Source: a virus
DNA length: 23,934 nucleotides
Virus record (IMG/VR): IMGVR_UViG_3300032156_000658
Location: 1-23,934 of that record
Reading direction: 5' to 3' (one strand)
The notes under the pieces were generated by a model, which was given only the letters and a program-made list of their open reading frames with translations, made no database searches and was not told the DNA's origin. Position 1 is the stretch's first letter; every line of letters begins with the position of its first letter. This document shows, piece by piece, positions 2 through 23,934 of the stretch. The position numbers were made by a program, and so were the translations under genes.

Positions 2-1069
2 CCTCTACGTTCTCGTGTTATCCGCCTAGCCCACACCCAGCCAAGTCTTCGTCCCTACCTCCTCCCGCTGTTGAAGACGGCCATTGATCCCGATGCCGTC
101 TACCAGAAGGCTCTGGAGGACCTCACGGACGCCGCCGCGATCAGTGACGCCGTGCAGGATGTGCTGGACGGATTCAACCTGCATTACGCATCGGTGGAAG
201 ACGAGACCAAGATCCTGTCCGAGTTCCAGGTGTTGAACAAGGCCAGGGATGGTCTGCGCTATGCCCAAGAAGCACAACGGGCTCTGAAGAATCTAGCCGC
301 CACGTTCCCCGGGGACGCCAAGTACTCCAAGGCCCTGACCGAGACCGAGAAGGTCATCGAGACGCTGGAGAAGCAGGTCAAGGCCGCGTCCACCGTCATC
401 CGCACCTTGTCCAAGAAGCTCGCGCCGAAGGCCCTGATGGCGATGATGAAGAAGGTCGAGGCGGGGATCAAGGGGTGGCTGCATGACCCATCGAAGCTCG
501 AAGTGTTCTACAACTGGCAGAAGGACTACCAGGGGAAGGTGTACTTCAACGGGATCATCCGGGCCAATATCCCACCAGGCCAGGGGAGGGATCGTACCAT
601 TGATCTCGTTCTGCGCGAGTACGTGACGGGGGCCCCCGGTATCACGATGGGGGTGGGTGGTTTCGATCTGAAACCAGCCTCGGTGAACGATGCCGTGGAC
701 CTGTTCATCACCTCGGCCAAGGGGTGGGACAACATCAAGGGCGAGACCGAGAGCCGGAAGGTGCGTGAGCCCGCCGCAAAGGCCATTGCTGCGGCCCTAC
801 AGGGCGTTCGCATGGGATGGGACAGCGACAATGCCACGATCAGCTCGGACTTCCGTACGGTCGAGTGGTCCTATCGTAGTGACAGTCTTCCGAAGGAAGG
901 TGCCTACGAAATGGGCGAGTCCAGGTACTACGAGATGGTCAGGGAGGAGATCGCCCACGCCAAGAAGGCCATAGAGTCCATGCTGGCCCCCTACAAGGAC
1001 AAGATCAACAAGGTGGACTTCCAGGACGGTGAGAAGTCGTGGATCTACATCACCGTGTACCTGAAGTAG
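2..1069 (+). CDS. Hypothetical protein, 5' end cut by window edge
   Basis: No function recognised. The frame ending in the TAG at 1069 is open to the first bases of the window, so at least 355 residues are encoded and the true start is probably just outside. A TTG at 71 is the first conventional start inside, but the codons before it read RVIRLAHTQPSLRPYLLPLL. That Leu/Pro/Arg pattern looks like a genuine conserved N-terminal peptide, so I do not use the TTG. The first ~150 residues are rich in Ala, Lys, Glu and Leu and should be helical, possibly coiled coil. The second half is mixed alpha/beta with many aromatics and ends in a beta-like stretch (WIYITVYL). A virion-associated role is a guess only. 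The next gene begins 25 bases downstream. Confidence 0.7.
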   Translation, partial: PLRSRVIRLAHTQPSLRPYLLPLLKTAIDPDAVYQKALEDLTDAAAISDAVQDVLDGFNLHYASVEDETKILSEFQVLNKARDGLRYAQEAQRALKNLAATFPGDAKYSKALTETEKVIETLEKQVKAASTVIRTLSKKLAPKALMAMMKKVEAGIKGWLHDPSKLEVFYNWQKDYQGKVYFNGIIRANIPPGQGRDRTIDLVLREYVTGAPGITMGVGGFDLKPASVNDAVDLFITSAKGWDNIKGETESRKVREPAAKAIAAALQGVRMGWDSDNATISSDFRTVEWSYRSDSLPKEGAYEMGESRYYEMVREEIAHAKKAIESMLAPYKDKINKVDFQDGEKSWIYITVYLK

Positions 1070-7048: not shown

Positions 7049-7608
7049 GTGATGACAGCAACCCCTTCGGCGGGAAGAACCCGCACAGCATGTACACCCC
7101 GATGTCCGAGACCGAGCAGGAGTTCGTGTCCCGGCTGGCCGAAAAGGGGGACCTCCAGGTGAAGATCCATGGGTGGGGCATCGTCCCGAATCCCACGGTC
7201 ACCATTGGAGACCTCCGGGTGGTGATCCCGATGACGTTGCGGTTCGACCGGCCCGAGGTGCCTATCCCGGTCCACCAATTCGACCTGGAACTCCTCACTG
7301 GATCAGGTGTGTCGCTGTTCCGCGAGACCCAGCCCACGGAGTATGGCGGCCAGCCCATCCTGGTGGGCTCGGGGACCGAGATCCAGATGGTATGGGACAT
7401 TGCCGTCAAGGTGATGGACCCGAAGCTGGTGAAGATGTACTTGCCCAGTGCCACGGGGCTCACGTCTCGGCTGATCGACAAGGACACCGGAGACCTGACC
7501 CTCACTGGCAACATGAACCTGGGCACCAACCAGAAACGGCTTCTCCAGTTGATCCGTGTAGGCGAGGCCAGGGTCAAGGCAGGGAAGACGAACAAACCCC
7601 CCCGGTAG
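7045..7608 (+). CDS. Hypothetical protein, 187 aa
   Basis: No family recognised. ATGA overlap with the cold-shock gene. The first ~35 residues are polar (SDDSNPFGGKNPHS) and partly helical. The middle is rich in beta-strand-like segments (LQVKIHGWGIVPNPTVTIGD, LRVVIPMTLRFDRPEVPIPV, QFDLELLTGSGVSLF, EIQMVWDIAVKVM). The end is short, helical and basic (LLQLIRVGEARVKAGKTNKPP). No signal peptide, metal site or catalytic motif is visible. It closes the coupled cluster that starts at the polymerase; a 24-base gap with a CTATACC element precedes the next gene. Confidence 0.75.
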   Translation: MSDDSNPFGGKNPHSMYTPMSETEQEFVSRLAEKGDLQVKIHGWGIVPNPTVTIGDLRVVIPMTLRFDRPEVPIPVHQFDLELLTGSGVSLFRETQPTEYGGQPILVGSGTEIQMVWDIAVKVMDPKLVKMYLPSATGLTSRLIDKDTGDLTLTGNMNLGTNQKRLLQLIRVGEARVKAGKTNKPPR

Positions 7609-7620: not shown

Positions 7621-7632
7621 TTGCCTCGGGGT

Positions 7633-10600
7633 ATGAACAGCCTCGTAGGCCGCGTCGCTGCGCGTTTTCTGTCCGCTGTCACTCCCCTTCCTGCTGAGGA
7701 CATCGAACCCCCCTCGCCTGGGGAGCAGATCAAGCACCTGTCTCTCCCGGGGCTGACGCCCTACGAGACGTGGCTTGATCTCAACAAGGTCCTCAAGAAG
7801 CCCCAGTGGCGGACGTTGACCTTCACCATGGAGACCAAGCTCCGCAAGGGGATGGGGCTGGGCCTCACATCACCGGCCTGGCAGTTCTTCCGCCTGGCGG
7901 ACCATGTGCTCCACATGTCCCTTGGGGCCCCCCGCGAGGACCTGTTCCAGCAGTTCAAGATGTCCAGCACCAGGCTGGCTAGAGTAGTGCTGGACAAGTT
8001 CGGGGATGTGGTGGGTGCCGAGGTCGCCGGAGCCATTCACAACTTCGTGGCGGAGAACCGCTCCAACTTGATGCGGATCGTCAACCCCAAGATCAATGGA
8101 GTTCCATTCACTCAGATCGGAATGGGGGTCTCCCAGGTCGTGGAGAAGATTGCCAAGGCGATGGATGTCCAGGCGGGGTCCATGATCAAGCCCATGGGGT
8201 CTGGCAAATGGCCGCAGATCCGGCTGCTGACCCGGAAGGAGAACGAACTCCAGAAGCTCCAGGAGAACAACCCCGAGTTGTATCAGGAGATCAAGCAGCG
8301 GGCCGATGCCCTGACTCCCGATGAGCAACTCGAACAGAGCGGCCTGGTTCGGACGACCGTATCCATCGATGGTGTCCCCGTCCCGGCTGGAGTAGACCCG
8401 GTGACTGGGGAGCGGTTTTTCTTCCCTGTGTCACAGCCTCCTGTGGAGGCGACGGCCCCCACCTACTACGACAGGGCGGCGCTTGAAGCCCAGAACGAAC
8501 TGGGGCGTCTTCGGGATGAAGACGCCAAGTACAAGCAGTTCACCGAGGTGTACCAGGAGAAGAAGCGCCTGAACCTCATCACCCCTGATGATGAGGCAGA
8601 TGCAAGCAACAAGGAACAGGATGCCCAGGCTCGGGAAGACCAGAAGGACATGCTGTCCGAGATGCTGAAGACTCGCCGGTCGGTCAACGTGGTGTCCGAA
8701 GCGGACTACCGCCGGGATCGAGCGAAGTATCTGCGGTCGAAGGGCGTACTGCTGACCGAGTTTGCTCCCATGACCACCTTCAAGAAGAAGGTCGAAGACG
8801 GCAAGGTGGTCACGGACAAGGACGGGCAACCCGTGTGGCAGGCCGAACCTGTCCGCAATCCAAATGCCCTGGTCATCGATGGGGCCCGTAGGATCGACCC
8901 ACTCGACTTCGTGGAGGACTGGGACAAGGAGCCCGCGCCCGAGGCCGAGGTCAAGCCGGAAGGCGAAGCCAAGCCGGAAGGCGATAAGGGCAAGAAGCCC
9001 AAGGGGAAGACCTGGAACGACGTGCTCAAGGACGTGCGGATCTTCCCGGAGATGCGGAGGGATGGAACCCCCAACGAGGTTCAGTACCGTGCCCTGACTG
9101 ACAACAAGGCCGACATCGAGGGCACGCGCGTCTATCCGGTGCGCGAGGATGCCAACGGTGAGCTGGTCATCATCGAGGGTCGGTTCCAGGGGTTCCACCT
9201 GGACGACATGGTGAACGCCGCCGGACGCCTGGTCGAAGGCGCAGCCTACGACCTGAATGATGAGGGCATCCCCGTCGAGTTCGATGCCTTGGATGAGAAG
9301 GGCAACCTGGCGCTCAATGCGGTCAACAAGGAGCCCTATTGCACCCTGGACTCGCAGGGCCGGTTCCTGCTGAAGATCCCGATGGTACGGGGTGGCCGGG
9401 GTGGAGATCCCTTCCGCATGGCCCGCGAGCGGCTGGCGGCGAAGGCATCGAAGCGTCCATTCACCCCGCTCGACAGGGAAGGCAAGCCTCAGATCGATGA
9501 TAAGACGGGCAAACGCAAGAGGAATCCCGGGTGGACGCGCGGGACCATCCTGGAGCTTCCGATGCGCTGGGGGGAGGGCCGCACCCTGTTCACCTTCGAG
9601 GCAAAGGACTTCGCTACGGTTCGCGCCTCCGTGGGCGGATTCTGCATGTCGGCTGCCGCTGCGGAGAAACTCCGAGAGTACAACTCCCAGTTGGCCCGTC
9701 AGGAAGCTGCCCTCAAGAAGGAGAATCTTGACCCCTTCGATCTGTACAAGCTCGGGGGATTCAACACCCAGCTCAAGATCGACCCGAAGACGGGCGAGCC
9801 CACCGATCCCCCGGTGCTGACCAAGGACCTCATGTCGAAGCAGAAGGAAGCCCTGGCGTGGGTCGAAGCGAAGGGCTACAAAGGCCTGGCGGCTCTCGAC
9901 ACGGGTGTGGGCAAAACCCTACTGACCATCGCCACGATCAAGAAGATGATCCGTGACGGGGCGGCCGGGGACCTGAAGTTCCTGTACGTCTGCCCGAGGC
10001 ACCTCCTGAACAACTTCGTCAGCGAGATGAAGGCGTGGCTGACCAAGGAAGCCAACGAAGATATGGCTCCGAGGGTCGTCCAGATGTCCTACGAGGACTT
10101 CGCCTTCGAGGTGATGGGCGGTGAACGCAACACCATGGCACCCAAGGAGGGCAGTGGGGTCAAACGGCGCGTGAAGAATTCCGAGACCGGCTTGATGGAG
10201 TACCATGAGGATGAGACCACACGGAAGCTGGTGAACGTGCGCGAGGCCGTTCCAGAGCTGGACAAGGATGGCAAGACCATCCCCGTACTGGACGCTGGTG
10301 GCAATCCTGTACTGGATGACAAGGGCAGGCCCCGGATCAAGCTCATTCAGCGCACTGACGACAAGGGGAACCCGCTGTTCGACAGCAAGGGGGGCCCCGT
10401 CTACAAGATGCGGAACAAGAAGGAGTCCAAGGGCCGGAACTTGGCCTTTGCGAAGCAGTTCGCTGCCATCTTCTTCGATGAGGCCCACTACCTGACCCAG
10501 GCTGGTGAGAACTCCCAGGTCAGCCAGGCTGCCCAGCTCATCAACCATCCCCGGAAGATCCTCCTGACGGCTTCCCCGATGGACGACGACCCCGACGCCC

Positions 10601-12111
10601 TGTACACAAGCGTTGCCATCACCAACAACCAGATCGTCTCCAGTGGGTGGGATCGGGACCCTGTCACCGGGGAGGCGGTCGAGGTCAAGGGTAAGAAGAT
10701 CTCGCAGGCCAGGAAGGAACTGATGGCGTTCCGTCGTAGGTTCTGCGTCCGGGTGGCCGGACGTACCCTGGGCATCAAGTCCGACAACGAGGCTGATCCG
10801 ACAGCACGACAGGACTTCGACGCATGGGCGAAGGACGGGATGTACTTCGCTGACAAGCGGACCATCGGGGTCGAGGGCACCAGCGAGTACGAGCAGACGT
10901 TGAAGCTGCCAGGGAAGATGGACCCTGAGACCGTGTGCTTGAACATGCACCCGGACATCGAGGAAGCCTACCGGGCGACGGCCATGGAGGTCGCCAACAT
11001 CCTGAAGGCCCTGGTGAAGGTCTTCAAGATGACCCCCGAGGAGTTGCGCCAGACCGGCAGGGGACGGAGCAAGGCGCTGACCGAGGCGGAGAAGGCACTG
11101 ACGACCAACTATGAATCCAAGCTCAAGAAACACATCAAGCTCCTGGAGCAGCTCGTCAACTACCCCGAGGAAGTACGGAACCCGGACGGGACGTACCGCT
11201 TCGAGAAGATCCTCTCGGATGACCCCAGGGACATCCTGAGCCCGAAGATCAAGAAGGCCCTGGAGGTCGTCCGCGACCACATCGGCAAGAAGCGGGTGGT
11301 GCTGTTCACGGACGACCCCAAGATGGCCAAGAAGACCGGCATGGCCCTTGTGAACAACCTGTCCGGCTGCCGTGTGGCGGTGGCCCTGAAGGATCGCATC
11401 ACGGTCTTCGAGGCCCGGCCTGCATTGCCCGCAGGGGAACAGCCGACCGTCAAGACAGGGGCCGAAGATGCCCCTGTGAAACCCACGGCGAAGGTCCACC
11501 GGCCCGAGGTCTACACCAGTAGGGAGTCCTACAAGACCAAGGACGGCGCGGATGTTACGCCGGACAAGTGGGCGTCACACGTACTGGAGGAGATCGTCTC
11601 CAAGGACCCGACGATCCAGGCCCTGGTGCTGACCAAGGATTATGCCCTCGGGCAGAACCTCCAGTCGTTCGGCACAGTGGTGCATCTCGACCGGGACACC
11701 TTCTCCAACGAGATGATGAAGCAGCGGCTCGCCCGCGTGTGGCGTACCAATCAGAAATCCCAGGTGGACGAGTACATGCTCGACGTGACCTACTCGGCTC
11801 CTGGCAAGGACGACTACACCCTGGATCAGGTGCGAAGCATCATCCAGTCCTCACAGGAGAACCTGTTCGAGGACATCGTCATGGACTCGCGCATGGCGGT
11901 CATCGGTGAGGACTGGAAGACGATGAAGGAGACCCAGGCCAGCATGGTGGAGGTGAACCGGCAGATGCTCGAACTGATGTTCGCCCCCTACCCCGAAGCC
12001 CTGGGGGACTACAAGCTCCAGCAGGCGAACCTGGCGCAGAAGATGAAGGGCACCGTGGACAAGGGGAAGCTGCCTCCAGCGGCCCCGCTCCCCACCAGGT
12101 TCGCTCAGTAG
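7633..12111 (+). CDS. Giant SF2 (SNF2-like) ATPase/helicase with long N-terminal extension
   Basis: 1,492 aa. The C-terminal half is a superfamily 2 DNA translocase or helicase core. Motif I is DTGVGKT with K761-T762, motif II is D949-E950-A-H952 (FFDEAH) and motif III is LLTASP at 977-982. Motif VI is Q1364-R1365-L-A-R1368-V-W-R1371. Typical SF2 cores are 400-600 aa. Here ~700 N-terminal residues precede the core and match nothing I know; they include a charged helical section (~aa 280-350) and a KPEGEAKPEG linker near aa 437-446. A ~105-residue insertion with D-x-x-G-x-P units sits between motifs I and II. The protein starts MNSLVGRVAARFLSAV, an RVAARFL-type N-terminus. ATG 7633 was chosen over TTG 7621 because it begins that motif and follows CTATACC at good spacing. 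Function in replication, recombination or as a packaged factor is inferred. Confidence 0.92.
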   Translation: MNSLVGRVAARFLSAVTPLPAEDIEPPSPGEQIKHLSLPGLTPYETWLDLNKVLKKPQWRTLTFTMETKLRKGMGLGLTSPAWQFFRLADHVLHMSLGAPREDLFQQFKMSSTRLARVVLDKFGDVVGAEVAGAIHNFVAENRSNLMRIVNPKINGVPFTQIGMGVSQVVEKIAKAMDVQAGSMIKPMGSGKWPQIRLLTRKENELQKLQENNPELYQEIKQRADALTPDEQLEQSGLVRTTVSIDGVPVPAGVDPVTGERFFFPVSQPPVEATAPTYYDRAALEAQNELGRLRDEDAKYKQFTEVYQEKKRLNLITPDDEADASNKEQDAQAREDQKDMLSEMLKTRRSVNVVSEADYRRDRAKYLRSKGVLLTEFAPMTTFKKKVEDGKVVTDKDGQPVWQAEPVRNPNALVIDGARRIDPLDFVEDWDKEPAPEAEVKPEGEAKPEGDKGKKPKGKTWNDVLKDVRIFPEMRRDGTPNEVQYRALTDNKADIEGTRVYPVREDANGELVIIEGRFQGFHLDDMVNAAGRLVEGAAYDLNDEGIPVEFDALDEKGNLALNAVNKEPYCTLDSQGRFLLKIPMVRGGRGGDPFRMARERLAAKASKRPFTPLDREGKPQIDDKTGKRKRNPGWTRGTILELPMRWGEGRTLFTFEAKDFATVRASVGGFCMSAAAAEKLREYNSQLARQEAALKKENLDPFDLYKLGGFNTQLKIDPKTGEPTDPPVLTKDLMSKQKEALAWVEAKGYKGLAALDTGVGKTLLTIATIKKMIRDGAAGDLKFLYVCPRHLLNNFVSEMKAWLTKEANEDMAPRVVQMSYEDFAFEVMGGERNTMAPKEGSGVKRRVKNSETGLMEYHEDETTRKLVNVREAVPELDKDGKTIPVLDAGGNPVLDDKGRPRIKLIQRTDDKGNPLFDSKGGPVYKMRNKKESKGRNLAFAKQFAAIFFDEAHYLTQAGENSQVSQAAQLINHPRKILLTASPMDDDPDALYTSVAITNNQIVSSGWDRDPVTGEAVEVKGKKISQARKELMAFRRRFCVRVAGRTLGIKSDNEADPTARQDFDAWAKDGMYFADKRTIGVEGTSEYEQTLKLPGKMDPETVCLNMHPDIEEAYRATAMEVANILKALVKVFKMTPEELRQTGRGRSKALTEAEKALTTNYESKLKKHIKLLEQLVNYPEEVRNPDGTYRFEKILSDDPRDILSPKIKKALEVVRDHIGKKRVVLFTDDPKMAKKTGMALVNNLSGCRVAVALKDRITVFEARPALPAGEQPTVKTGAEDAPVKPTAKVHRPEVYTSRESYKTKDGADVTPDKWASHVLEEIVSKDPTIQALVLTKDYALGQNLQSFGTVVHLDRDTFSNEMMKQRLARVWRTNQKSQVDEYMLDVTYSAPGKDDYTLDQVRSIIQSSQENLFEDIVMDSRMAVIGEDWKTMKETQASMVEVNRQMLELMFAPYPEALGDYKLQQANLAQKMKGTVDKGKLPPAAPLPTRFAQ

Positions 12112-12938: not shown

Positions 12939-15900
12939 GTGAACAGGTCTGCCTGCATCATTGCTGCGGGTGTGTGGGGCGGTAAGCGGTCCCTGCTGAA
13001 GAACCGCGACCGCAAGTACACCCCGAAAGTCGTGATCGTTCACGAGATCCTCGACGGCACCGAGGTCGCTTATATGTGCGACAAGGTGACGAACTGGTGC
13101 GAGGGGCTGAACGAGTACGGCATCGGAATCGTCAACGCTGCTCTGGCTGTGGGGCTGGACGAGGCAGAGGGTACGGACGAACGCCACGAGACCCACAACA
13201 AGTCCGACGATGGCGCGCGGGTGCTGAAGGCTCTGGCCTGCAAGACTCTGGACGATGCCATCAAAGCCGTCTGCGAGTACAAGGACGGTCTGGAGGGGCA
13301 CACCTTCGTATCCAACCCGAAAAGAGCCGTGTCGATTGAGCTCGTCGGGAAGGATTGTGTGGTCAAGGACCTGGACCCTGACGACATCCATGTTCGGACC
13401 AACCACGGACGAGACACCGGGGGCACAGGGTACACGGACGGTGAAGGCTACCTGGCATCCGCTGCCCGGAAGGAAAAGGCCATCCAGATCCTTCGGCAGA
13501 GCAAGAAGCCCACGGACCTTGGACCGGACCTGATGGCGAATAGGTCCGAGGAGGAACCTCATACGCTCAACGACCCTGTGCGGGACGCCAAGAAGATGAA
13601 GACCACTTCCCAGATGGTGGTGAACATCACCGATCGGGAGCTGGACTTCTTCGTGATCCCCGACAAGATGGAATACAAGGGCGTAGAGAACAAGCTGCCC
13701 AAGGGCTACAAAGCCAAGGTCAAGATCCGGGTGTTCGGCTACCAGGACGACGGCGCGAAACTGTCGGAGCTGGACCAGGCTACAGGGAAACCGAAGGGCC
13801 GGGCCAGGAAAGTGTCAGCGGACCCTCGTTCTCTACTTTTCAAGCCCGATATCACCGCAGACGAATTCCAGGTGCTGTTGCGGTGGTTGCGGGACATGGG
13901 CCAGGCCCGGGACCACATCGGGATCGACTACGACCGCTTTGCGGACTGGCTGAACACGTCATTCGGGTACGAGACCCCCCGGAGCACGTTCACTCCGCAG
14001 CAATACCGCACCTACTACGACTGGTTTCTGCGGAGCCTGGCACCCCCGGCGGTGGTTGCGGCCAGGGCCAATGCAGCGTCAACCGACGTGTGTTCGCCCA
14101 TCCAGGGGCACGTTGTCTACTCGGGCCTGGTGGGTGACGGACAGATTGAACTCAAGGATGGTTCGGCAAACATCCTTGAAGCTCTCCGGCACCGGGAGCC
14201 AGACCTGGCGAGCCACGAGTTCGTCAAGTTCAATCTGGATGTCCACGACTACCATCACATCCATTCCCCGGTGGACGGCAAAGTCAGCGACATCCACTAC
14301 TTCGATGAAGGCACCGACCCGTTCGGCCACAACAACGCCATGGTCATCGAGATCGATACGGCGTTCGGCCGGGTGTTCGTGTGTTGCATCGGGGAACTCA
14401 CCGTGCAGTCCATCCACCACGAGGTTCATCCCGGGGACACCGTGCGGAAGGTGGACAGGCTGGGATGGTTCTGGTGGGGATCGATGATGCTTGTGGTCTT
14501 CCCATCTGGGCTTCGTATCGAGGCCATGCCCGACCAGTCGGTTTTCGTCGGAGATTACATCGCCATGCTGGAACAACGGCGCGTACAGGCCGGGTCACAC
14601 GAGAAGTCCATCGCCCTGATGAAGTTTCTCTCCCGTGTAGCGATTGGGAACGGGGCAGCCCACCACATTTACATCACGGGGGGTGCGGTGCGGGACTTCC
14701 TTCTGGGCATCCCCCCGAAAGATATTGACGTGGTAGTGGACTCGGTATCTCTCGGTAGAGGGCGGGACTCCGAGTGGTTTGCGAAGAAGGTCATCGAGGC
14801 CATCCCGGTCCCGGCAAATCTGACGACCAACCAGTACGGTGTCGCCATTGTCACGGTGAAGGGGGAGTGGCTCCTCGACGGAATCAACATGCAGGGCGAT
14901 GTCATTGAGATCGCCAACGCCCGCAAGGAGTCTTACGAAGGTGTGGGCGGCAAGGGCAAGGGTTACAAGCCGACCGATGTGGTGCCAGCGACCATCGAAG
15001 AGGACATGTTCCGGCGGGAGTTCACCTTCAATGCCCTTCTGTGGCGACTACTGGACCTGACGGAAGGACCGGAGAAGGCTGAAGTCATCGACATCACTGG
15101 GCTTGGGAGGCAGCACCTACAGGAGAAGCTGATATCCACCCCGATGAACCCCGACAAGACCTTCGGGGACGACCCCACCCGGCAGCTCAGGATCATCAAG
15201 TTCCTCCTGCGCTACGACCTGAAGATCGCACCGGAGGTGGTCGCATCGGTCAAGCGCAACGCCCACAAGCTGAAGACCATGCCGTGGGAGGCCGTGGGGA
15301 ACATCCTGGTGGACAACATCCTGGCGTCTCCAAAGGCATCCCAGGGACTGAAGGTGATGAAGTCCCTGGGCATCCTTGATGTCCTTGTCGAGATGATCCA
15401 GGAGAACAAGTCGTTCGAGGCGTTCCTGACCAGGCAACTGGCATCAGGGAACCACTCGGTAGGGCTCCTGCTGGAGCTGGCCGACCTTGGCATCGCAGGG
15501 AGGGTGATCACCTTCCTGTCCCCGGAACAGCGTGGCCGCTTCCGTGATGTCACCACAGGGATGTCTGACCCTGAAGCCAAGAGGTACCTTGAAGCCCTGC
15601 GGAAGCCCCCTGTGGACAGTCTAGCACTGATCCAGGAGTTCAATCTCCAGGGCAGCGAGCGTGGTGTGATGACCCCCATGGCCCGGGACCTGATCCTTGA
15701 AGACCCGGACCTTGCGACCAACAGCGTGAAGCTCAACGACCTCTTGCGGGAGCGGCTTCGCCCGATGGCCAGGACGGCTGACCTGACTCCCCCACGGGGT
15801 GTCAATCGGATCGTGGACCTGATCTGGGATGACCTTTGCGTCAAAGAAGGTCTCAGTTGTTCGGAAAAGGAAGACTCGCCTGCCATGTCCTGTGGAGTCC

Positions 15901-16667
15901 CCATGAACACATCTGCAAGCCGTATCGCTACCTTGTACCTTCAGGCCATGGAACCCATGGAGGTGATTCTTCGTGATGTGGATACCCTCGAAGCCCTGGT
16001 AGCAGACATCCAGGTGGTGCTCGATACTTTCGAGAACACCGTCCCGATGCCACACGTCGGGCGCATTGCAGCCATCACCCTGATGTCCCAACGGGAGTGT
16101 TTCAACAAGTGCGAGCACGCCCTGAGACATTGCGAGCGGGTCATCAACATGGCCCGGGGGTACCTTTTGTATGTGCATCCCTCCGGGGAGGACCAGGCAG
16201 CACTTGTACTCAGGGATGCACAGACCATGTACGAGAAGTTCGAGTCCTTCCGGGCTCGGTCGCGGGAAATGCTCTCGGTTATGTCCCAAAAGATCATGCC
16301 GACCGAGCTCAAGGACACCGTGACTGCGGTGTTGAACGGGGTGCGGGAAGCCCTGAAGTACCCCAACAGTGCCACCGTGACGGTGGCCCCCCGCTTCGCC
16401 CCCTGTAAAGTGCGTGGTCGGCCGGTGGACGGCCTGGTGTTCTACGCCTATGTGACCGTGTACCCGTTGCCGAAGGATGAACACCCGTACTACCAACAGT
16501 TCGTGTTCACCCAGGCGACGATGGGGGACGACCTGAACCTGTACCTGGTCGCAGAGGATCGTGAGACAGGGGAGCCCACGAAGCCCATGGTGGTTGGGGC
16601 GGACACTGGGGCGGTGGTGAAGAAGGTCCTGGGAATGCTGAAGGGCTGGACGAACCTGAAAGACTAG
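12939..16667 (+). CDS. Multidomain protein: Ntn hydrolase + phosphatidylserine-decarboxylase-like + nucleotidyltransferase + unknown C-terminus
   Basis: One uninterrupted 1,242-aa frame from a GTG. (1) Residues ~6-240 resemble C45/AAT-type N-terminal-nucleophile hydrolases: candidate nucleophile C6 after a five-residue propeptide, N22-R23-D24, TNWCEGLNEYGIGIVN from residue 51, and TNH at 154-156. (2) Residues ~385-545 resemble phosphatidylserine decarboxylase: D437-Y-H439-H-I-H442 followed by SPVDGKV, and G514-S515 at the position of the family's self-cleavage and pyruvoyl site. The first motif reads SPIQG where an acidic residue is expected. (3) Residues ~575-870 match class II tRNA nucleotidyltransferase/poly(A) polymerase: GGAVRD at 581-586, D595/D597, RREFTFN at 692-698 and DDPTRQLR at 744-751. 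(4) Residues ~983-1242 are unrecognised and begin near MNTSASRIATLYL. The stop shares a CTAG with the convergent thymidine kinase stop. Maturation by self-cleavage is inferred. Confidence 0.9.
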   Translation: MNRSACIIAAGVWGGKRSLLKNRDRKYTPKVVIVHEILDGTEVAYMCDKVTNWCEGLNEYGIGIVNAALAVGLDEAEGTDERHETHNKSDDGARVLKALACKTLDDAIKAVCEYKDGLEGHTFVSNPKRAVSIELVGKDCVVKDLDPDDIHVRTNHGRDTGGTGYTDGEGYLASAARKEKAIQILRQSKKPTDLGPDLMANRSEEEPHTLNDPVRDAKKMKTTSQMVVNITDRELDFFVIPDKMEYKGVENKLPKGYKAKVKIRVFGYQDDGAKLSELDQATGKPKGRARKVSADPRSLLFKPDITADEFQVLLRWLRDMGQARDHIGIDYDRFADWLNTSFGYETPRSTFTPQQYRTYYDWFLRSLAPPAVVAARANAASTDVCSPIQGHVVYSGLVGDGQIELKDGSANILEALRHREPDLASHEFVKFNLDVHDYHHIHSPVDGKVSDIHYFDEGTDPFGHNNAMVIEIDTAFGRVFVCCIGELTVQSIHHEVHPGDTVRKVDRLGWFWWGSMMLVVFPSGLRIEAMPDQSVFVGDYIAMLEQRRVQAGSHEKSIALMKFLSRVAIGNGAAHHIYITGGAVRDFLLGIPPKDIDVVVDSVSLGRGRDSEWFAKKVIEAIPVPANLTTNQYGVAIVTVKGEWLLDGINMQGDVIEIANARKESYEGVGGKGKGYKPTDVVPATIEEDMFRREFTFNALLWRLLDLTEGPEKAEVIDITGLGRQHLQEKLISTPMNPDKTFGDDPTRQLRIIKFLLRYDLKIAPEVVASVKRNAHKLKTMPWEAVGNILVDNILASPKASQGLKVMKSLGILDVLVEMIQENKSFEAFLTRQLASGNHSVGLLLELADLGIAGRVITFLSPEQRGRFRDVTTGMSDPEAKRYLEALRKPPVDSLALIQEFNLQGSERGVMTPMARDLILEDPDLATNSVKLNDLLRERLRPMARTADLTPPRGVNRIVDLIWDDLCVKEGLSCSEKEDSPAMSCGVPMNTSASRIATLYLQAMEPMEVILRDVDTLEALVADIQVVLDTFENTVPMPHVGRIAAITLMSQRECFNKCEHALRHCERVINMARGYLLYVHPSGEDQAALVLRDAQTMYEKFESFRARSREMLSVMSQKIMPTELKDTVTAVLNGVREALKYPNSATVTVAPRFAPCKVRGRPVDGLVFYAYVTVYPLPKDEHPYYQQFVFTQATMGDDLNLYLVAEDRETGEPTKPMVVGADTGAVVKKVLGMLKGWTNLKD
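16664..16667. other. Shared palindromic stop: CTAG ends two convergent genes
   Basis: The plus-strand TAG (16665-16667) of the multidomain gene and the minus-strand TAG (16666-16664) of thymidine kinase lie in the same CTAG tetramer. There is no spacer and no obvious terminator between these convergent genes, so their 3' transcript ends are likely to overlap. Confidence 0.95.
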
Positions 16668-17224
16668 AGCCCCCGGCGGTTCTGCCGCCAGCAGACTAGA
16701 CAAGCTGGAGCGTATCCCTCCACACCGACCCGCACGGCCCCAGCCTTGGCTGCGGTGTTCGATGTGCGAGTGGCCTTGCGCCCGCACTCGCAGATCGCCT
16801 TGAGCTTCTTGGGCTTGCTAGCGATGCACAGGAGATGGCCCATCGGTCCGAAGGGGGCACCCTCGGAGGTGAGGTCAAGACCGGCGGCTACGATGTGCAG
16901 CTCAGGGTGTTCTCCCTGGATGCGGTCGAGCCATAGGGGGAGGTCCATGTCGAAGAAGTGGGCCTCATCGACCACGAGGAGGTCCAGACTCTTTGGCAGT
17001 CCATCGTAGATGCCCCGGGATGTTTCCACCCATCGGGGGGTGACCCCCAGGGACTCGATCAACTTCCCGGTGTGCGTCTTCCCACCGTGTCCATTGTTCC
17101 TCTTGTCCAGAGCAGGGATCACCACGTCCACGATCTTCCGTGCCCGCTTCGCTCTCTCCACGTAGCGGTACAAAGTGGTGCTCTTCCCCGCGAACATCGG
17201 GCCTACCACACATTTCAGGGACAT
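16664..17224 (-). CDS. tdk: Thymidine kinase, type II (TK1-like)
   Basis: Phosphorylates thymidine to dTMP with ATP in the salvage pathway, feeding phage DNA synthesis. 186 aa, a normal length for the family. The P-loop is G8-P-M-F-A-G-K14-S15-T16. The Walker B/catalytic site is D86-E87-A-H-F (VVDEAHFF), with E87 as the expected catalytic base. C-terminal zinc ligands are C145, C147, C175 and C178, followed or preceded by the lasso region (VRVGVEGYAPACLVCW). The first pair is C-x-C, whereas most TK1 enzymes have C-x2-C. The start is the ATG at 17224: it has GGGAGG 11 bases upstream, and the longer GTG start at 17242 would only add residues inside the preceding gene. It overlaps the end of the nuclease gene by 10 bases, suggesting coupling. 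The phage assignment comes from context. Confidence 0.95.
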   Translation of the reverse strand: MSLKCVVGPMFAGKSTTLYRYVERAKRARKIVDVVIPALDKRNNGHGGKTHTGKLIESLGVTPRWVETSRGIYDGLPKSLDLLVVDEAHFFDMDLPLWLDRIQGEHPELHIVAAGLDLTSEGAPFGPMGHLLCIASKPKKLKAICECGRKATRTSNTAAKAGAVRVGVEGYAPACLVCWRQNRRGL

Positions 17225-18012
17225 TTGACGATATCCTCCCACTTGATCCCTTGTTTACGGTTCTTGGCGACAGCAAGACGGAACCCCACACCGTTAGCCT
17301 GGCACCAGTCTTTGACTGCTTTGAACTTCTCCCCGGCCATATATGGGGTCACTAGATGAGCCCCCTTCCCCTCGATCACATCACGGTGGCCATCTGCGTA
17401 CGTCACCAAGAAGTCAGGGAGGGCGTGCTTCTTCGCCCCACTCGGGCCGATGTAGTGGACGACTATCGGGGACTGCCATGTGGTAACTGACTGGTCGGCA
17501 TCCAACATTTGCATCAGATGCAGCTCAATCAGTTTGGATCGATAGGGGATAGGCTTGTCCCCGGCTTTATTTGAGGTGTGGTAGCCTTTTACGTTGAAAT
17601 CCTCGCCCTGGAGGTGCCGTAGGACATTGTTTTTCGACGTGGCCTCCTGGCGTTTGCGGTATCCTGGGAGATCCTGATTGCGGTTGGTTTCAGAGATGCG
17701 TTCCCCGTACCCATCTGGTTTAGGCACCCCTTTTCGGCTCGCAGACATTTTTGCCCGGGTGCTATCCGTGGCTCGTCTCCCCAGATTAGCCTGACGGATC
17801 TTCTCCCTCGTAGTCTCGGACATGGGGTGCCCCTTCGGGGCCCTACGGGGATAGGACTTCCCTTTGTGGGAGGCCGACAGTTTATTTCTGACCTCGGGGG
17901 ATAGCTTCTTCCCGATCCTGGCTTGCCGGAGTTTTTCCTTCGTGGCCTCGGACATGGGGGGCCTGGACTTGTACCTGCGGGTAGGTGCTGGGGAGTCTGA
18001 TTCGGGGGTCAC
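17215..18012 (-). CDS. NUMOD3-containing PD-(D/E)XK endonuclease, probable homing endonuclease
   Basis: 265 aa from the chosen GTG at 18012. The N-terminal half has repeated NUMOD3-type DNA-binding motifs (SEATKEKLRQARIGKKLS, SPEVRNKLSASHKGK, SETTREKIRQANLGRR, STRAKMSASRKG). The C-terminal half looks like a TnsA/VSR-like PD-(D/E)XK nuclease: E163 in RSKLIELHL, D200 in LPDFLVTY, then E214-x-K216 in DVIEGKG and a helix KFKAVKDWCQANG. Family knowledge: NUMOD3 is typical of GIY-YIG and HNH homing endonucleases; here it is joined to a different nuclease fold. GTG 18012 was chosen because it lies 18 bases after a GTTATAGG element (18030-18023); a TTG at 18033 would place that element inside the gene. 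It lies immediately upstream of thymidine kinase on the same strand. Target unknown. Confidence 0.85.
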   Translation of the reverse strand: MTPESDSPAPTRRYKSRPPMSEATKEKLRQARIGKKLSPEVRNKLSASHKGKSYPRRAPKGHPMSETTREKIRQANLGRRATDSTRAKMSASRKGVPKPDGYGERISETNRNQDLPGYRKRQEATSKNNVLRHLQGEDFNVKGYHTSNKAGDKPIPYRSKLIELHLMQMLDADQSVTTWQSPIVVHYIGPSGAKKHALPDFLVTYADGHRDVIEGKGAHLVTPYMAGEKFKAVKDWCQANGVGFRLAVAKNRKQGIKWEDIVKCP

Positions 18013-18022
18013 GTTTTCTGGA

Positions 18023-18030
18023 CCTATAAC
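18023..18030 (-). promoter_or_regulatory. GTTATAGG element before the nuclease gene
   Basis: On the minus strand GTTATAGG ends 10 bases before, and starts 18 bases before, the GTG at 18012. The spacing is like that of the CTATC elements before plus-strand genes. Candidate promoter or start signal; it was used to choose the GTG. Confidence 0.28.
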
Positions 18031-18083
18031 CAAGCCACCGCTTTCATCGGACCACAGACGACCTTCAGCATGGGTGCCCCTTC

Positions 18084-18987: not shown

Positions 18988-19884
18988 ATGTCATTCGGCT
19001 GGACATCATTCTTCCGCCAGGGCGCGTGGATCGAGTTCCGGCGTTTCATCCTCAACCAGCGTCGGGACGTGATCGCCAGGGTCACGGCCATCAACGTCGA
19101 GCTGTCCAGAATTGGCAGCATCCAGATCCTCTACGAGCGCAGCGCCACGGACAGGAACCAGATGACCGAGCGCCGCATCGGGATGAACGTCACTCCGAAC
19201 ACCTCGATGGAGCATCTCCTACGGGCCTACATCGCTCATGGTGGGAACCCGTTCGACATCTCGATGTTCCTGATCCCGGACTCCTTCGACGTGATCGAGG
19301 AAACAGAGGCCGCCACGACGCAGGACCCATCGGCGGCCGGGACGGTCCCATCTGCGGCTGTCCAGGATAACCAACCCTACGGAGGCATCACGGCCTCGGG
19401 GACCACCGACCCGCTCACGCCAGGCCTGTACATGGGCGGGTGGTTGCCCCTGTGGCGGTACCCCCCCAGGCGTTTCGGCAACACGGTGAGCAACACGGCC
19501 TCGGGTGCGGACATGACCCGGACGATCCATGCAGCTCGGGGGTGGGTGACCCAGGAGATCAGGACCCTGCGGAACGACATCGAGGCCAGGATCATCAAGC
19601 TCATGGACCTCCGCGAGCAACTGATGCGGGAGCGGGACGAGATTCTCCCCACCGCTGTCGGTGGGTCCGTCCCTGGACTGAGCTGGTCCAACGATGGGGA
19701 GTTCGCTACTTCCCACAACGTCGCCATGATTGTCGATAACATCGATGCCGTGTACTACCCGGTGCGCCTACCTGACGGGTCCAGGGACTTCAACCATCCA
19801 AGAGAATCACGACCGAACCCAGAGCAACCCATGCTCCTGGATGATGCCCCGAACGGCGAAGAAGATTTTTCCGCCATCGGTTAG
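18988..19884 (+). CDS. Hypothetical protein, probable tail or baseplate component, 298 aa
   Basis: No family recognised with certainty. ATG 18988 has GAGG upstream. Residues 1-60 are helical and basic (EFRRFILNQRRDVIARVTAINVELSRIG). A region with SMEHLLRAYIAHGGNPFDISMF follows. The middle is low-complexity (ATTQDPSAAGTVPSAAVQDN, then Gly/Pro/Tyr-rich LYMGGWLPLWRYPPRRFG). A long helix follows (WVTQEIRTLRNDIEARIIKLMDLREQLMRERDEIL), possibly coiled coil, and then an acidic, Asn/Pro-rich tail. It lies upstream of the gp25-like and J-like baseplate genes, separated from them only by the homing endonuclease. That context is the reason for the structural guess. Confidence 0.75.
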   Translation: MSFGWTSFFRQGAWIEFRRFILNQRRDVIARVTAINVELSRIGSIQILYERSATDRNQMTERRIGMNVTPNTSMEHLLRAYIAHGGNPFDISMFLIPDSFDVIEETEAATTQDPSAAGTVPSAAVQDNQPYGGITASGTTDPLTPGLYMGGWLPLWRYPPRRFGNTVSNTASGADMTRTIHAARGWVTQEIRTLRNDIEARIIKLMDLREQLMRERDEILPTAVGGSVPGLSWSNDGEFATSHNVAMIVDNIDAVYYPVRLPDGSRDFNHPRESRPNPEQPMLLDDAPNGEEDFSAIG

Positions 19885-19915: not shown

Positions 19916-20512
19916 ATGCCCTACGGAGAAATCTACTGCCTGACGTGTTTCGTCACTGGCAAGAAGTACATCGGCCAGACCACACAGGCATCTGATAAAC
20001 GCTGGAAACAGCACCGAAACGAGCGGAACCGGAAGGCTACCCACATCAACCGTGCCCTCGTGTTGCACGGGGTCGAGACCTTCACCCTGACAGTCTTGGA
20101 CATGGCCGATGATCAGACCGAACTGGACCTGAAAGAGGTCTATTGGATTCGTCTGGAAGGCACCCTGTCTCCCAACGGGTACAACCTCAACGAGGGCGGG
20201 CTGGGTGGCGGGAAACGCTCCCCTGAGACCCGCGCCAAGATGAGTGATTCCCAGCGGAAGAGAACACACCCTCCCGAGGTGCGGGCGAAAATCTCAGCAG
20301 GTAGCGACCACCACTCCCCATCACCCGAGAACCGCGCCAAGCTCACCGAGTACGCCCGGAACAAGAGCCAGGAACATCGTGATGCGATCCGCAAAATGAA
20401 CCGAGAGCGGGTGTTCACCCCTGAGATGCTGGCGAGGATGGGGGCGTCCCAGACGGCTCGCTGGGAACGGTGGCGTGCGGCCCGCGCTGATGCCCCGAAG
20501 GCCCAGCCGTAG
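19916..20512 (+). CDS. GIY-YIG homing endonuclease with NUMOD3 motifs (Seg-like)
   Basis: 198 aa. The N-terminal GIY-YIG nuclease has E5-I6-Y7 and Y18-I19-G20, catalytic-type R29 (DKRWKQH), E74 in LKEVYWIRLEG and N90 in PNGYNLNEGG, in the order and spacing of the family. C-terminal NUMOD3-type DNA-binding motifs follow (SPETRAKMSDSQRKR, PPEVRAKISAGS, SPENRAKLTEYARNK). This is the layout of the phage T4 Seg free-standing homing endonucleases. The first residue of GIY is Glu here, a modest deviation. ATG 19916 has AGGG upstream. The genes on either side are intact and no intron is evident, so it appears free-standing between two structural genes. Its cleavage site is expected in a related phage lacking it, probably in a flanking gene. 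Confidence 0.92.
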   Translation: MPYGEIYCLTCFVTGKKYIGQTTQASDKRWKQHRNERNRKATHINRALVLHGVETFTLTVLDMADDQTELDLKEVYWIRLEGTLSPNGYNLNEGGLGGGKRSPETRAKMSDSQRKRTHPPEVRAKISAGSDHHSPSPENRAKLTEYARNKSQEHRDAIRKMNRERVFTPEMLARMGASQTARWERWRAARADAPKAQP

Positions 20513-20558: not shown

Positions 20559-21662
20559 ATGTCCAGGGACGTACAGCTCGCATACATCTGTCCTCATCTC
20601 ATTGGTGAGGAACGGATTCTTCTTGGGGCCGACCGGAGGACGCTGTACACGTCCAAGCCGATATCGGGACAGTCGCTCATCAAGGTCGTCTGCAACAACC
20701 TGTATCTGGTGTCCCCTTTTACTGGCCTGGTGAATCGGGCAACGGTGACTTCGTACCGGCGCGAGCCTTTCAAGGTCACCCTGGCAAGCCGTGCCCTGGC
20801 GATCCGATCCCAGGTAGGCACCGTCGCCACTACCCTGCCGACGGGATATCTGTCGGCGGCCCAGGTCGTAGCCTTCCTGACCTCGGTTGCCGGGGCCTAC
20901 GTGACGACGACGACATCCACCACGGGGTACATCACCATCACTGATGCCGGGAACCCTGGTCTTGCATCGCGGGTGCAGCTTTCTGGTAGCTCCCTTGAGG
21001 CGCTAGGTTTCGAGCTTCAGTCGGGGGACAAGGGCAAAGTGGTGGTGCCCCCGTGGAGGCTCTACTCACGGAACGCCGTGAACCCGCAGGATGCGGTGGA
21101 CAGCCTCGGGCACTACATCGGTTTCGACTCCCCTGTTTCCCAGGGAATGTACTTCTCGGTGACATACCCGGTCGCCCCGAACCTCTGCCTGCGATGCCTG
21201 ACTACCGAGGTTGAGAACGACTACAGGTTCGATGCCCAGGGGAACCCCCTGATGGTGCAGGACGAAAACCTCCTGTACCAGTCGTGCCTGAAAGTGTTGC
21301 TGACCGAGCTGCGGTCCAACGTCTACTACCCCTGGTACGGATCAACCCTGAACTCGATGATCGGGTCGAAGGTTGTTGGGGGGACGGTATCTGGTCTTCG
21401 GCAGTCAGTGTCGAATGCCCTGACGATGTTCCAGAACCTCCAGACAGCACAGGCCAAGTACCAGCGGATCACTGCCAAGGAGAGGTTGTTCTCGGTGGAT
21501 TACATCGATGTGGCGCCTTCCCCGGATGACCCAACGGTGTTCCTCATCGAGGTGGGGGTGCGGAACTACTCGAACGAGGCCGTGAGCATTACCATTGTCT
21601 ACACGGCCCCGGGTACGTTCGCGTTGCCTGGAACAAACCAACTGTCCATGGGGAACTACTGA
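20559..21662 (+). CDS. Baseplate wedge protein with gp25-like C-terminal domain, 367 aa
   Basis: Predicted virion baseplate protein of a contractile-tailed phage. The C-terminal ~120 residues (from ~235) look like the gp25/lysozyme-like baseplate family: a long helix with conserved aromatics (LLYQSCLKVLLTELRSN), then VYYPWYGSTLNSMIGSK, a helical QNLQTAQAKYQR stretch and final strands (DPTVFLIEVGVRNYSNEAVSI). The N-terminal part has a beta-rich module (TLPTGYLSAAQVVAFLTS ... GYITITDAGNPGLAS ... SSLEALGF). That module resembles repeats in phage tail and flagellar hook-associated proteins. gp25 alone is ~130 aa, so this is an extended version. It is followed at once by the J-like gene (TGATG overlap), the usual order of gp25 then gp6/J in baseplate operons. 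Confidence 0.85.
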   Translation: MSRDVQLAYICPHLIGEERILLGADRRTLYTSKPISGQSLIKVVCNNLYLVSPFTGLVNRATVTSYRREPFKVTLASRALAIRSQVGTVATTLPTGYLSAAQVVAFLTSVAGAYVTTTTSTTGYITITDAGNPGLASRVQLSGSSLEALGFELQSGDKGKVVVPPWRLYSRNAVNPQDAVDSLGHYIGFDSPVSQGMYFSVTYPVAPNLCLRCLTTEVENDYRFDAQGNPLMVQDENLLYQSCLKVLLTELRSNVYYPWYGSTLNSMIGSKVVGGTVSGLRQSVSNALTMFQNLQTAQAKYQRITAKERLFSVDYIDVAPSPDDPTVFLIEVGVRNYSNEAVSITIVYTAPGTFALPGTNQLSMGNY

Positions 21663-23934
21663 TGGCAACCACGGTCCAGATCCTCGGTCCAGATGGGGTG
21701 TTGCGTGAGACGCTAGCCTTCTCGACCACGCAGACATCCCGGTTCTTCACGGGCGTCCTACCAGATGACACCGTGGACGTGGAAGTGTCGGTCTTCGGAC
21801 AGACATTCACGAGCGATGCCACGCTGGTGGCGTTTGCGGACACGGGCTTCGTGGTGCCTAATCCTGCGTCGTACCCCGCAGGACTGGAATTGTTCTCTGG
21901 ATCGAACGTCATCCAGGTCAGAGCAGTCAGTCTGTCCGGGAACCGCAGCAACGCAGCGACGGCCACGGTGATTCTGTTGCCGCCCGCACAGGCGGACGTA
22001 TTCTCGCCTCCCACGGCGATCACCATCGAGCGGCTGGACGGTGCGGTGGAGGTCTCCGCTCAGGGGCTTACCGACACCCGGGTGAGGGGCTACAACTTCT
22101 ACGCGGCGACGACGGCTGGTGGCGGAACGGCAGGCTACCGCCTCATCAACGTCAACCGGGTCATTACGGGGGAACAGATCCAGGAGGTCACTGATATCTA
22201 CACGCTCGTTTCGGACAACGAGAAGAATACCACCGTAGATCCCGTGTACCTCCGGGCGATGATCACCCAGGAAGACAGTGCGGAAACGGTGCTGTCCACG
22301 GACGTGGACAGCAGGGTGGAGATTCCCGATACCGTCACGGACATTCGCACGACGATGACGGTGTCATCGGTCAAGACCATCACCTACTACAAGTTCCGCC
22401 ATTTGCGAACTGCGAATGCCAACTCAACCCCTGCGACGATCTTCAGCGGGACCTTTGCATCCACGCCGGATACCGAGCTTCTCTACTACGTGGTGACGGC
22501 GATCTATTACGACACCACGCTCCAGACCGAGTACGAGTCGTACTTCTCTGTAGAAGTTGCTGGGACACCAGCACAGGTCCGGCAACAGGTCAACGGGATC
22601 ACCACCGTCACCCGGCAGCAGATCCTCGAACAGGCCATTGCCAGCATCTACCGGCAGAACCCTGACATCGCCGTACAACCTGGTGCGGTCACGCGGGATG
22701 TGTTTCTTGATCCGTTCACCACCGAGGCGGAACGGCTCAGGATGCTCCTCGACTTCGTGTACCGGGCCAGTTCCTTCGACACTCTGCTCCTTGTGGACGA
22801 TCCCACGGGATCGGGCATCTCGCAGGACCCGGCAACGTCGGCGTACAAGACTGCCCTGGCGGCGGCGCTGTTCTACTCGAATGTCAACGATGTCCAGAAG
22901 GTCATCGACGCAGCCTTTGACAAAATATCGGCCAACTTCAACAAGTTCCGCCGGGCAGGTACGGGGGCCGTGGGCGAGGCTCGGTTCTACACCACGGTGG
23001 CCCCTACGCAGACGGTCTCGTTCCCCCTGGGCACGGTGATCTCGGGTGCGGGCATCCAGTACAAGTCCACCCGCTCGGCCAGCATGTTGTTCAACCAGTT
23101 GGCCAGCTACTACAACCCGTCCGCTCACGAGTGGTCGGTCACGGTGCCGATCCGGGCCCTGACAACCGGAACCGTCACCAACGTCGGGCCGAGACAGCTC
23201 ACGTCGTCCAACGTCTACGGCATGGCCGTCACGAACGATGCTGCCACCTTTGGTGGGGCCGACGAGGAGTCCAATGCTGAACTCGCTGCCAGGGCCCGGA
23301 TGGCCCTGGCCTCCGTGGACACCGGCACGGACCAAGGCTATGCCCAGGTCGCGGCAGGCGTCCCAGGCACCATCCAGTGCATGGTGGTCCGGGCAGGTAA
23401 CCCCCTGATGCAGCGGGACTACGACACGACCCTGGCCCGGCACATGGGCGGCAAGGTGGACGTGTGGGAACGTGGCCTTCGCAGTGCCACCATCACGGAC
23501 ACCTTCGCCTTCACCTACCAGCGGCTGGACAACGTGCAGTTCGTGGTGATCGGGAACCCCTTGAACTACGTGTTCCGGGCGGTCAACAACGAGATCACCC
23601 AGGTCAATCCAATCGCGGCCATGCTGGACTACCCGACATTGGGCCTCGGTCTCAGGAACGTCACCACGGGTGATTACTTCGACCTCACCAACGTGGTCAT
23701 CCTGAACTACAACACCATTCAGCTCGACTACACCACGATCCCCCAGCCCATCGTGACATTGACGGACATCGTACTGGGCGACATCAGGTTCCGACTGGGG
23801 AACGAGCACGTATTCACCCGTCAGCCGGTCAACAACGTCATGTCGGTCGTGGGCGAGGTGACCCAGACTCTCGACCTGTCCCTGTTCGATCTTGTCCATC
23901 CGAACAGCCCCCTGGGCCTCGGGTGTAGCACACG
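21662..23934 (+). CDS. Baseplate J-like protein (gp6/Mu gp47 type), 3' end cut by window edge
   Basis: The frame from ATG 21662 (TGATG overlap with the gp25-like gene) stays open to the right edge, giving 757 codons so far. The N-terminal ~230 residues look like Ig/FN3-type beta modules (AITIERLDGAVEVSAQGL, RGYNFYAATTAGGG). The next part has TRQQILEQAIASIYRQNPDI and a helical segment. The core has TQTVSFPLGTVISGAGIQYK and GGADEESNAELAARARMALA from residue 531, the conserved G-G-x-D-E-E-S signature of baseplate J-like proteins. GTDQGYAQVAAGVPGTIQCM follows. In myoviruses this protein forms the baseplate wedge ring that triggers sheath contraction. The long antisense frame over it has no recognisable content. 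Confidence 0.9.
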   Translation, partial: MATTVQILGPDGVLRETLAFSTTQTSRFFTGVLPDDTVDVEVSVFGQTFTSDATLVAFADTGFVVPNPASYPAGLELFSGSNVIQVRAVSLSGNRSNAATATVILLPPAQADVFSPPTAITIERLDGAVEVSAQGLTDTRVRGYNFYAATTAGGGTAGYRLINVNRVITGEQIQEVTDIYTLVSDNEKNTTVDPVYLRAMITQEDSAETVLSTDVDSRVEIPDTVTDIRTTMTVSSVKTITYYKFRHLRTANANSTPATIFSGTFASTPDTELLYYVVTAIYYDTTLQTEYESYFSVEVAGTPAQVRQQVNGITTVTRQQILEQAIASIYRQNPDIAVQPGAVTRDVFLDPFTTEAERLRMLLDFVYRASSFDTLLLVDDPTGSGISQDPATSAYKTALAAALFYSNVNDVQKVIDAAFDKISANFNKFRRAGTGAVGEARFYTTVAPTQTVSFPLGTVISGAGIQYKSTRSASMLFNQLASYYNPSAHEWSVTVPIRALTTGTVTNVGPRQLTSSNVYGMAVTNDAATFGGADEESNAELAARARMALASVDTGTDQGYAQVAAGVPGTIQCMVVRAGNPLMQRDYDTTLARHMGGKVDVWERGLRSATITDTFAFTYQRLDNVQFVVIGNPLNYVFRAVNNEITQVNPIAAMLDYPTLGLGLRNVTTGDYFDLTNVVILNYNTIQLDYTTIPQPIVTLTDIVLGDIRFRLGNEHVFTRQPVNNVMSVVGEVTQTLDLSLFDLVHPNSPLGLGCST

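Follow-up and report, generated by a model that had tools for sequence, protein, structure and literature searches.

Polyvalent proteins of phages and conjugative elements, as described in the main text of Iyer et al. (2017, PMC5512222), unite unrelated enzymes in one polypeptide, and in jumbo phages CCA enzymes as well as 2H/HAD enzymes have been viewed as RNA repair (PMC7824862). Escherichia coli phosphatidylserine decarboxylase (PSD) cleaves itself via D90/D142-H144-S254, D90 and D142 being interchangeable (PMC7952604), and the head ejection proteins of T4 (CTS) and of the giant phage SPN3US carry N-terminal targeting propeptides (PMC10052503). To these systems we compare the IMG/VR record IMGVR_UViG_3300032156_000658, a linear metagenomic virus contig of 23,934 bases (this whole stretch is called the window), in which one open reading frame (ORF) joins an N-terminal-nucleophile (Ntn) hydrolase (NTN), a PSD-like domain, a class II nucleotidyltransferase (NT) and a C-terminal domain (CT). 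The explanation that we put first, giving it about an even chance, is that this fusion ORF encodes a genuine mosaic multi-enzyme protein of polyvalent type, fused from neighbouring genes in a clade of huge tailed phages related to LR745208.1.

A sequence-only reading of the window had proposed that three enzyme families not usually found together are read here in one frame, and this holds, as the ORF is open throughout and its domains are joined in-frame. The motif positions given in that reading are correct, and the motifs found are C6, NRD 22-24, TNH 154-156, D437-Y-H439, H442, G514-S515, GGAVRD 581, D595/D597, RREFTFN 692, DDPTR 744 and RIATLYL 995. Gene calls followed a simple longest-ORF rule, and the codon-position GC gives a single reading-frame signature through the fusion ORF with a GC content at third positions (GC3) of 0.60–0.92, resembling the neighbouring genes. 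Its minimum of 0.60 falls at residues ~951–1025, the region of a probable module remnant and of a short tag-like element described below. Furthermore, every module is under purifying selection when compared to its own relatives (dN/dS 0.13–0.44), the close relatives of the fusion protein all being metagenomic.

The locus was compared in three sister contigs (G001/L006, 57 kb; G002/L007, 105 kb; G003/L008, 266 kb) and in LR745208.1 (485 kb). All share with the window an upstream flank from DNA polymerase A through 7045–7608, where the examined stretch covers it, and a downstream flank consisting of 18988–19884 and the baseplate genes, and the thymidine kinase is common to the three sister IMG/VR contigs. 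Between these flanks the modules are reshuffled: the window has NTN-PSD-NT-CT as a single ORF, G001 has NTN followed by a separate PSD-X-D-CT, G002 has NTN-NT-X-D-CT as a single ORF, G003 has NTN-NT followed by a separate X-D-CT, and LR745208.1 carries none of NTN, PSD, NT, X, D and CT at the locus. Here X is a small module present in 394 contigs and D is DUF4258-like, with a match below the cut-off. A tail-collar-like gene is intact between the two ORFs in G003 (L008 10112–10842), mostly lost in G002, where its 3' end is read through out of frame (L007 ~10092–10215), and reduced to a 24-codon remnant in G001 (L006 8975–9065), so that fusion by loss of the intervening DNA is visible in the assembled sister contigs. 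The window, at residues 947–985, retains what looks like the beginning of D. Single-sequence scans of viral contigs with the full-length protein and with PSD only gave no match, the patterns being too strict.

For the first module a C45/AAT-like Ntn hydrolase had been proposed, and the structural evidence agrees. The AlphaFold model (pLDDT 83.5, pTM 0.86) matches isopenicillin N acyltransferase (IAT) in Foldseek (E=8e-9) and reaches VIA Z 17–19 over ~200 residues with CV2077, NAAA, acid ceramidase and IAT, and its residue 6 superposes on the nucleophile of bile-salt hydrolase (2), IAT (103), NAAA (126–131) and acid ceramidase (143). Using an alignment of the window module with its homologues from Chryseobacterium phages MA9V-1/2 (36% identity) as query, 315 IMG/VR loci were matched (in MA9V-2 the Ntn gene stands alone), and in a 47-member alignment C6, R23, D24, N58, E59, N155 and H156 are invariant. 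Pfam AAT is matched by 16 of the 47 relatives (best 5e-6), but the window sequence stays below the curated cut-off (E=0.02, 15 bits vs 23.2), and we therefore class the module as an Ntn fold and not as an AAT enzyme. In some relatives (L018, the L028 group and the L029 group) the Cys immediately follows the start Met, and the others have a short propeptide whose last residue is mostly E and in the close group of the window A; judged from sequence, C6 would thus be the catalytic Cys at the mature N terminus. At about 50 of the stand-alone loci a shared run of genes comes after NTN and ends at baseplate wedge homologues (the wedge names come from reading of the sequences), and the NTN of the window likewise lies upstream of baseplate genes. 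Two patterns found no member of this Ntn family in genome contigs. In L009 (7459–10066) the X module, NTN and a tagged TopoIB are adjoining separate genes, and FKRVVTAHLLKQA precedes NTN there.

The PSD-like nature of the second module was also borne out, as PF02666 matches with 88.1 bits against a cut-off of 22 (E=8e-25). The absence of an Ntn or PSD fold, which would have refuted the sequence-only reading, was not the outcome. Compared to 69 bacterial PSDs it has kept D437 (E. coli D142), H439 (H144), H442 (H147), G514 and S515 (S254-equivalent) as well as 25 of the 44 positions that are nearly invariant among them. The NCBIfam PSD equivalog cut-offs are not reached (best 43.7 bits vs 307), and the sole close relative is the PSD of L006 with 49–50% identity. 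Self-cleavage of the module may still occur, because D90 and D142 are complementary in the E. coli enzyme (PMC7952604). PSD matches in the phages collection came only from Acinetobacter records whose neighbours look bacterial and none was taken as a phage precedent; nine other huge-phage records yielded no PSD in a search that had no positive control among them.

As had also been suggested, the third module is a class II nucleotidyltransferase: PF01743 matches with 60.7 bits against a cut-off of 23 (E=2.4e-16), every class II head motif is present (GGAVRD, DxD, RREFTFN, DDPTR), and in the PDB the module is closest to CCA-adding enzymes and poly(A) polymerases. It is complete, since with residues 831–945 it matches stand-alone phage proteins of 404–424 aa, and it is 76% identical to the NT of two sister phages. 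NCBIfam equivalog cut-offs are unmet (CCA actinobacterial type 85.9 vs 438.8; pcnB 86.7 vs 305.65), and CCA and poly(A) activity cannot be told apart from the sequence. Scanning with NT gave 25 loci, and at several of these, in other huge phages, NT lies inside proteins of 1520–2495 aa, such as L219 (2495 aa; 2H, NT, TopoIB, GNAT), L221 (2289 aa; NT fusion), L218 (1757 aa; X, NT, 2H, PAP2, TopoIB), L217 (1556 aa; NT, HAD_SAK) and L212 (1520 aa; NT fusion). The partners of NT in these giant proteins act on RNA ends or on DNA, which fits the RNA-repair view of PMC7824862. The PAP2 (phosphatidic-acid-phosphatase-type) domain of L218 (residues 824–914) is a second lipid-type enzyme in such proteins. 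In L225 and L226 (5932–8572) two NT pieces lie in separate frames with ~500 residues between them, possibly due to an inserted element. A role of NT in finishing phage tRNAs found no support, as a single tRNA was seen in the NT-bearing G003 (266 kb) and none in G002 (105 kb), and the tRNA-rich LR745208.1 (W01) has no NT of the window type.

CT is 50% identical to the C-terminal domain of three sister phages, and its AlphaFold model (pLDDT 73.6) matches only uncharacterised giant-phage proteins, e.g. from Motura, Yoloswag and PaBG (BFVD, E 3e-7 to 9e-4), in agreement with the earlier description of a C-terminal domain of unassigned function; its sequence had no match in phage records at E up to 1. 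The RVAxRFL-type motif announced near its start is RIATLYL, part of an element that resembles a tag, tag A, for which we used a nine-residue profile of the RVAxRYLxA type (fuller consensus TASxxRVAxRYLxA). Predicted proteins of G001–G003 and LR745208.1 contain 25 matches of ≥14 bits compared to 1–2 in shuffled or reversed sequences, an excess that is partly circular because proteins of this set had themselves gone into the profile; outside that set 12 matches of ≥12 bits were found against near 0 in shuffles. Tag A is terminal in TopoIB, HAD and helicase proteins and also marks many borders between modules; in L219, L221 and L212 it lies 17 residues before NT. It is also seen in the helicase of the window (7621–7660) and in many proteins of G003 and LR745208.1.

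A second leader, tag B (LRSKLIRLAHxxPxLRPHLLPLL), occurs at 4–7 places in each of G001, G002, G003 and LR745208.1 (380 kb examined) and at 23 places in all, mostly near the start of otherwise unrelated ORFs, the window copy being at 2–90. The reversed pattern had no match in these four, and among 50,697 phage records tag B was found only in LR745208.1 (11 places). Tag B is conserved at the protein level; a DNA repeat was ruled out, as pS between copies (0.55–0.67) exceeds pN (0.14–0.18). A tentative suggestion, which we would not rely on, is that a stock of cassettes (Ntn, PSD-like, NT, 2H, TopoIB, HAD, X, DUF4258-like, CT) is built and rebuilt into enzyme polyproteins in this clade of huge phages, and that tag A, beside tag B, is either a shared address that directs proteins to the virion or to a compartment of the phage, or a site at which they are processed.

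In the mosaic protein that we propose, neighbouring genes would have been fused in-frame in the variable locus that precedes the baseplate genes, and the product may act early in infection as a polyvalent-type counter-defence or repair protein. After loss of its five-residue propeptide the Ntn module would act on a small molecule or a lipid, hydrolysing or transferring an amide or acyl group, and the PSD-like module would cut itself at G514/S515 to become a pyruvoyl decarboxylase for a phospholipid or an amino-acid-like substrate. NT would restore or extend RNA 3' ends, the simplest case being tRNAs whose CCA ends host defences have damaged, and CT with its tag-like start may tether the whole protein to the virion or to some other structure of the phage. 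The virion link suggested in the sequence-only reading is plausible by context only, i.e. from the tag statistics and the place upstream of the baseplate genes. The sequence-only reading had gone further and expected self-processing into separate chains, which the anatomy does not bear out: given the usual Ntn anatomy with C6 near the start, maturation there would free only the five-residue leader, and a cut at G514/S515 would leave NT and CT joined. A self-processing polyprotein with four chains was thus rejected, two being the most. If PSD self-cleavage works, these would be chains 6–514 and 515–1242, of which the latter would begin with a pyruvoyl group, and the two would probably remain associated.

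Several observations weigh against this explanation. The exact four-module order was seen only in the window, one 24-kb contig, and close relatives have other, shuffled layouts. Zincin peptidase, ArdC-N and LPDs, the domains that mark polyvalent proteins, were not found in the fusion ORF. Compared to the 69 bacterial PSDs, the usually invariant D90-equivalent is Q389, LGST is WGSM and the conserved PGxL segment is absent, so that both self-cleavage and the substrate of the PSD-like module are doubtful; the PSD of L006 has Tyr in place of H147 and Glu as its D90-equivalent. The Ntn family yielded no cellular relative whose substrate is known, and the CT model found nothing in the PDB at E≤0.001 (best E 0.01, TM near 0.2, spectrin-like helices only).

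Among the other explanations, a fusion of mere convenience survives best, although we think it doubtful. Separate host-takeover modules for lipid, acyl and tRNA metabolism would have been joined by intergenic deletion, with no shared function, packaging or processing. The variable layouts of the sisters, the fusion that follows deletion of the tail-collar-like gene (L008/L007/L006) and the occurrence of every module apart would all be expected in this case. However, the same kinds of module have been fused repeatedly in distant huge phages and tags recur near many of the borders, which points to some advantage in remaining joined or in having an address in common. It is unlikely that the Ntn amidase and the PSD-like decarboxylase form a linked pathway in which membrane lipids, or amides resembling lipids, are processed by one and then the other as the host is taken over or lysed: NAAA and acid ceramidase, both close fold matches, act on lipid amides, PSD acts on a phospholipid and L218 has its PAP2 domain among similar modules, but L007 and L008 keep NTN without PSD, NTN occurs in ~300 further phage contigs, standing alone in most of those checked, and the PGxL segment is missing. 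Finally, separate genes misjoined in assembly are very improbable even for a metagenomic contig with a module order seen once, since the locus with its conserved flanks recurs in three other assemblies with similar fusions in at least two (NTN-NT as one ORF in two of them, PSD and CT joined in a third), the codon-position GC is continuous and selection is purifying in each module, and the domains are thus not always separate genes as the sequence-only reading had considered.

The features of the fusion ORF and of its surroundings are collected in Table 1.

Table 1: Features of the window discussed in the text (positions refer to the window).
Feature	Position	Strand	Basis or remark
Fusion ORF NTN-PSD-NT-CT, 1242 aa	12939..16667	+	Open for 1242 codons, GTG start
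Module 1, Ntn hydrolase (C45/AAT, NAAA, BSH superfamily), residues 1–265	12939..13733	+	Fold match, Pfam AAT in relatives, 47-member alignment
Module 1 propeptide MNRSA and nucleophile C6	C6 = 12954-12956	+	Invariant Cys
Linker and N-terminal part of PSD module, residues 266–352	13734..13994	+	Aligns from residue 293 on with start of separate PSD gene (L006)
Module 2, divergent PF02666 PSD-like domain, residues 353–545	13995..14573	+	Pfam; comparison with 69 bacterial PSDs
Putative self-cleavage site G514/S515	14478-14483	+	Gly-Ser pair kept
Module 3, complete class II CCA/poly(A) nucleotidyltransferase (head, neck, body), residues 560–945	14616..15773	+	PF01743, motifs, stand-alone homologues
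Probable remnant of DUF4258-like module (D), residues 947–985	15777..15893	+	TADLTPPRGVN... vs TADLSPPLGVNGG... in relatives; GC3 dip
Module 4, CT (long helices and beta sheet), residues 986–1242	15894..16664	+	AlphaFold; BFVD matches
Tag A-like element RIATLYLQA at start of CT, residues 995–1003	15921..15947	+	18.6 bits
CT paralogue (~22–25% identity)	2..1069	+	First gene of window; opens with clade-specific leader LRSRVIRLAHTQPSLRPYLLPLLKTA (tag B)
SNF2-type helicase, N-terminal tag MNSLVGRVAARFLSA	7621..12111	+	Nearest large gene upstream in variable locus
Thymidine kinase	16664..17242	-	Downstream border of locus in 4/4 IMG/VR contigs
Two baseplate wedge genes (20559-21662 and 21662-23932)	20559..23932	+	Downstream structural-gene context

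Homing-endonuclease-like genes (PHROG 314 and others) are located near the structural genes of the window at 19916–20512 and 17215–18033. In LR745208.1 (L086 29703–34937) DNA polymerase A homology is found in three pieces ~1 kb apart, as if separated by introns, inteins or homing genes.

The fusion ORF extends the range of activities found joined in single phage polypeptides by lipid/acyl-type enzymes (Ntn, PSD-like and, in a relative, PAP2) and by a CCA-type nucleotidyltransferase, and fusions are seen being made and unmade between sister phages. The short tag is a testable candidate for a packaging signal and, if it is an address, would allow the proteins that huge phages bring into cells to be predicted by a rule on sequence. 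With the targeting leaders of T4 and SPN3US the tags of this clade are alike in distribution only, as short terminal sequences on unrelated proteins of one phage. To our knowledge there is no sequence likeness between the RVAxRYL or LRSKLIRLAH...LLPLL tags and those signals.

Module 1 shares with IAT (C45), NAAA, acid ceramidase and the bile-salt hydrolases the Ntn fold over the full module, the nucleophile Cys in register and a short propeptide or Met-Cys start, but it differs in having 13–16% identity to them and no long regulatory alpha chain, and its family was found only in phages in the searches made. With bacterial PSD (E. coli PSD, 7CNW, 6L06) module 2 has in common PF02666, the D142-, H144- and S254-equivalents, the Gly-Ser pair and the F.DWF.R segment, whereas the exchanges of D90 and LGST, the loss of PGxL, the retention of only 25 of the 44 near-invariant positions and the NCBIfam scores set it apart. 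Module 3 resembles the class II tRNA nucleotidyltransferases and poly(A) polymerase I in all four motifs and in its full length (~400 aa when alone) and differs from them in being fused and in reaching no equivalog cut-off. The earlier statement that no described system has this architecture stands for the exact order, which is new, but not for the kind, as mosaic phage proteins have been described as polyvalent proteins (PMC5512222). As in these, several unrelated enzymes are found in one mobile-element polypeptide and the domains also occur alone or in other combinations, and 2H and GNAT, known from polyvalent proteins in the main text of that work, occur in relatives of the fusion protein and not in the fusion ORF itself. 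Word searches of the same main text gave no hit for phosphatidylserine decarboxylase or Ntn hydrolase and general NTase mentions only for a CCA-type nucleotidyltransferase. The fusion protein differs from polyvalent proteins in that no zincin peptidase, ArdC-N or LPD domain was seen in it and is like them in the joining of unrelated enzymes.

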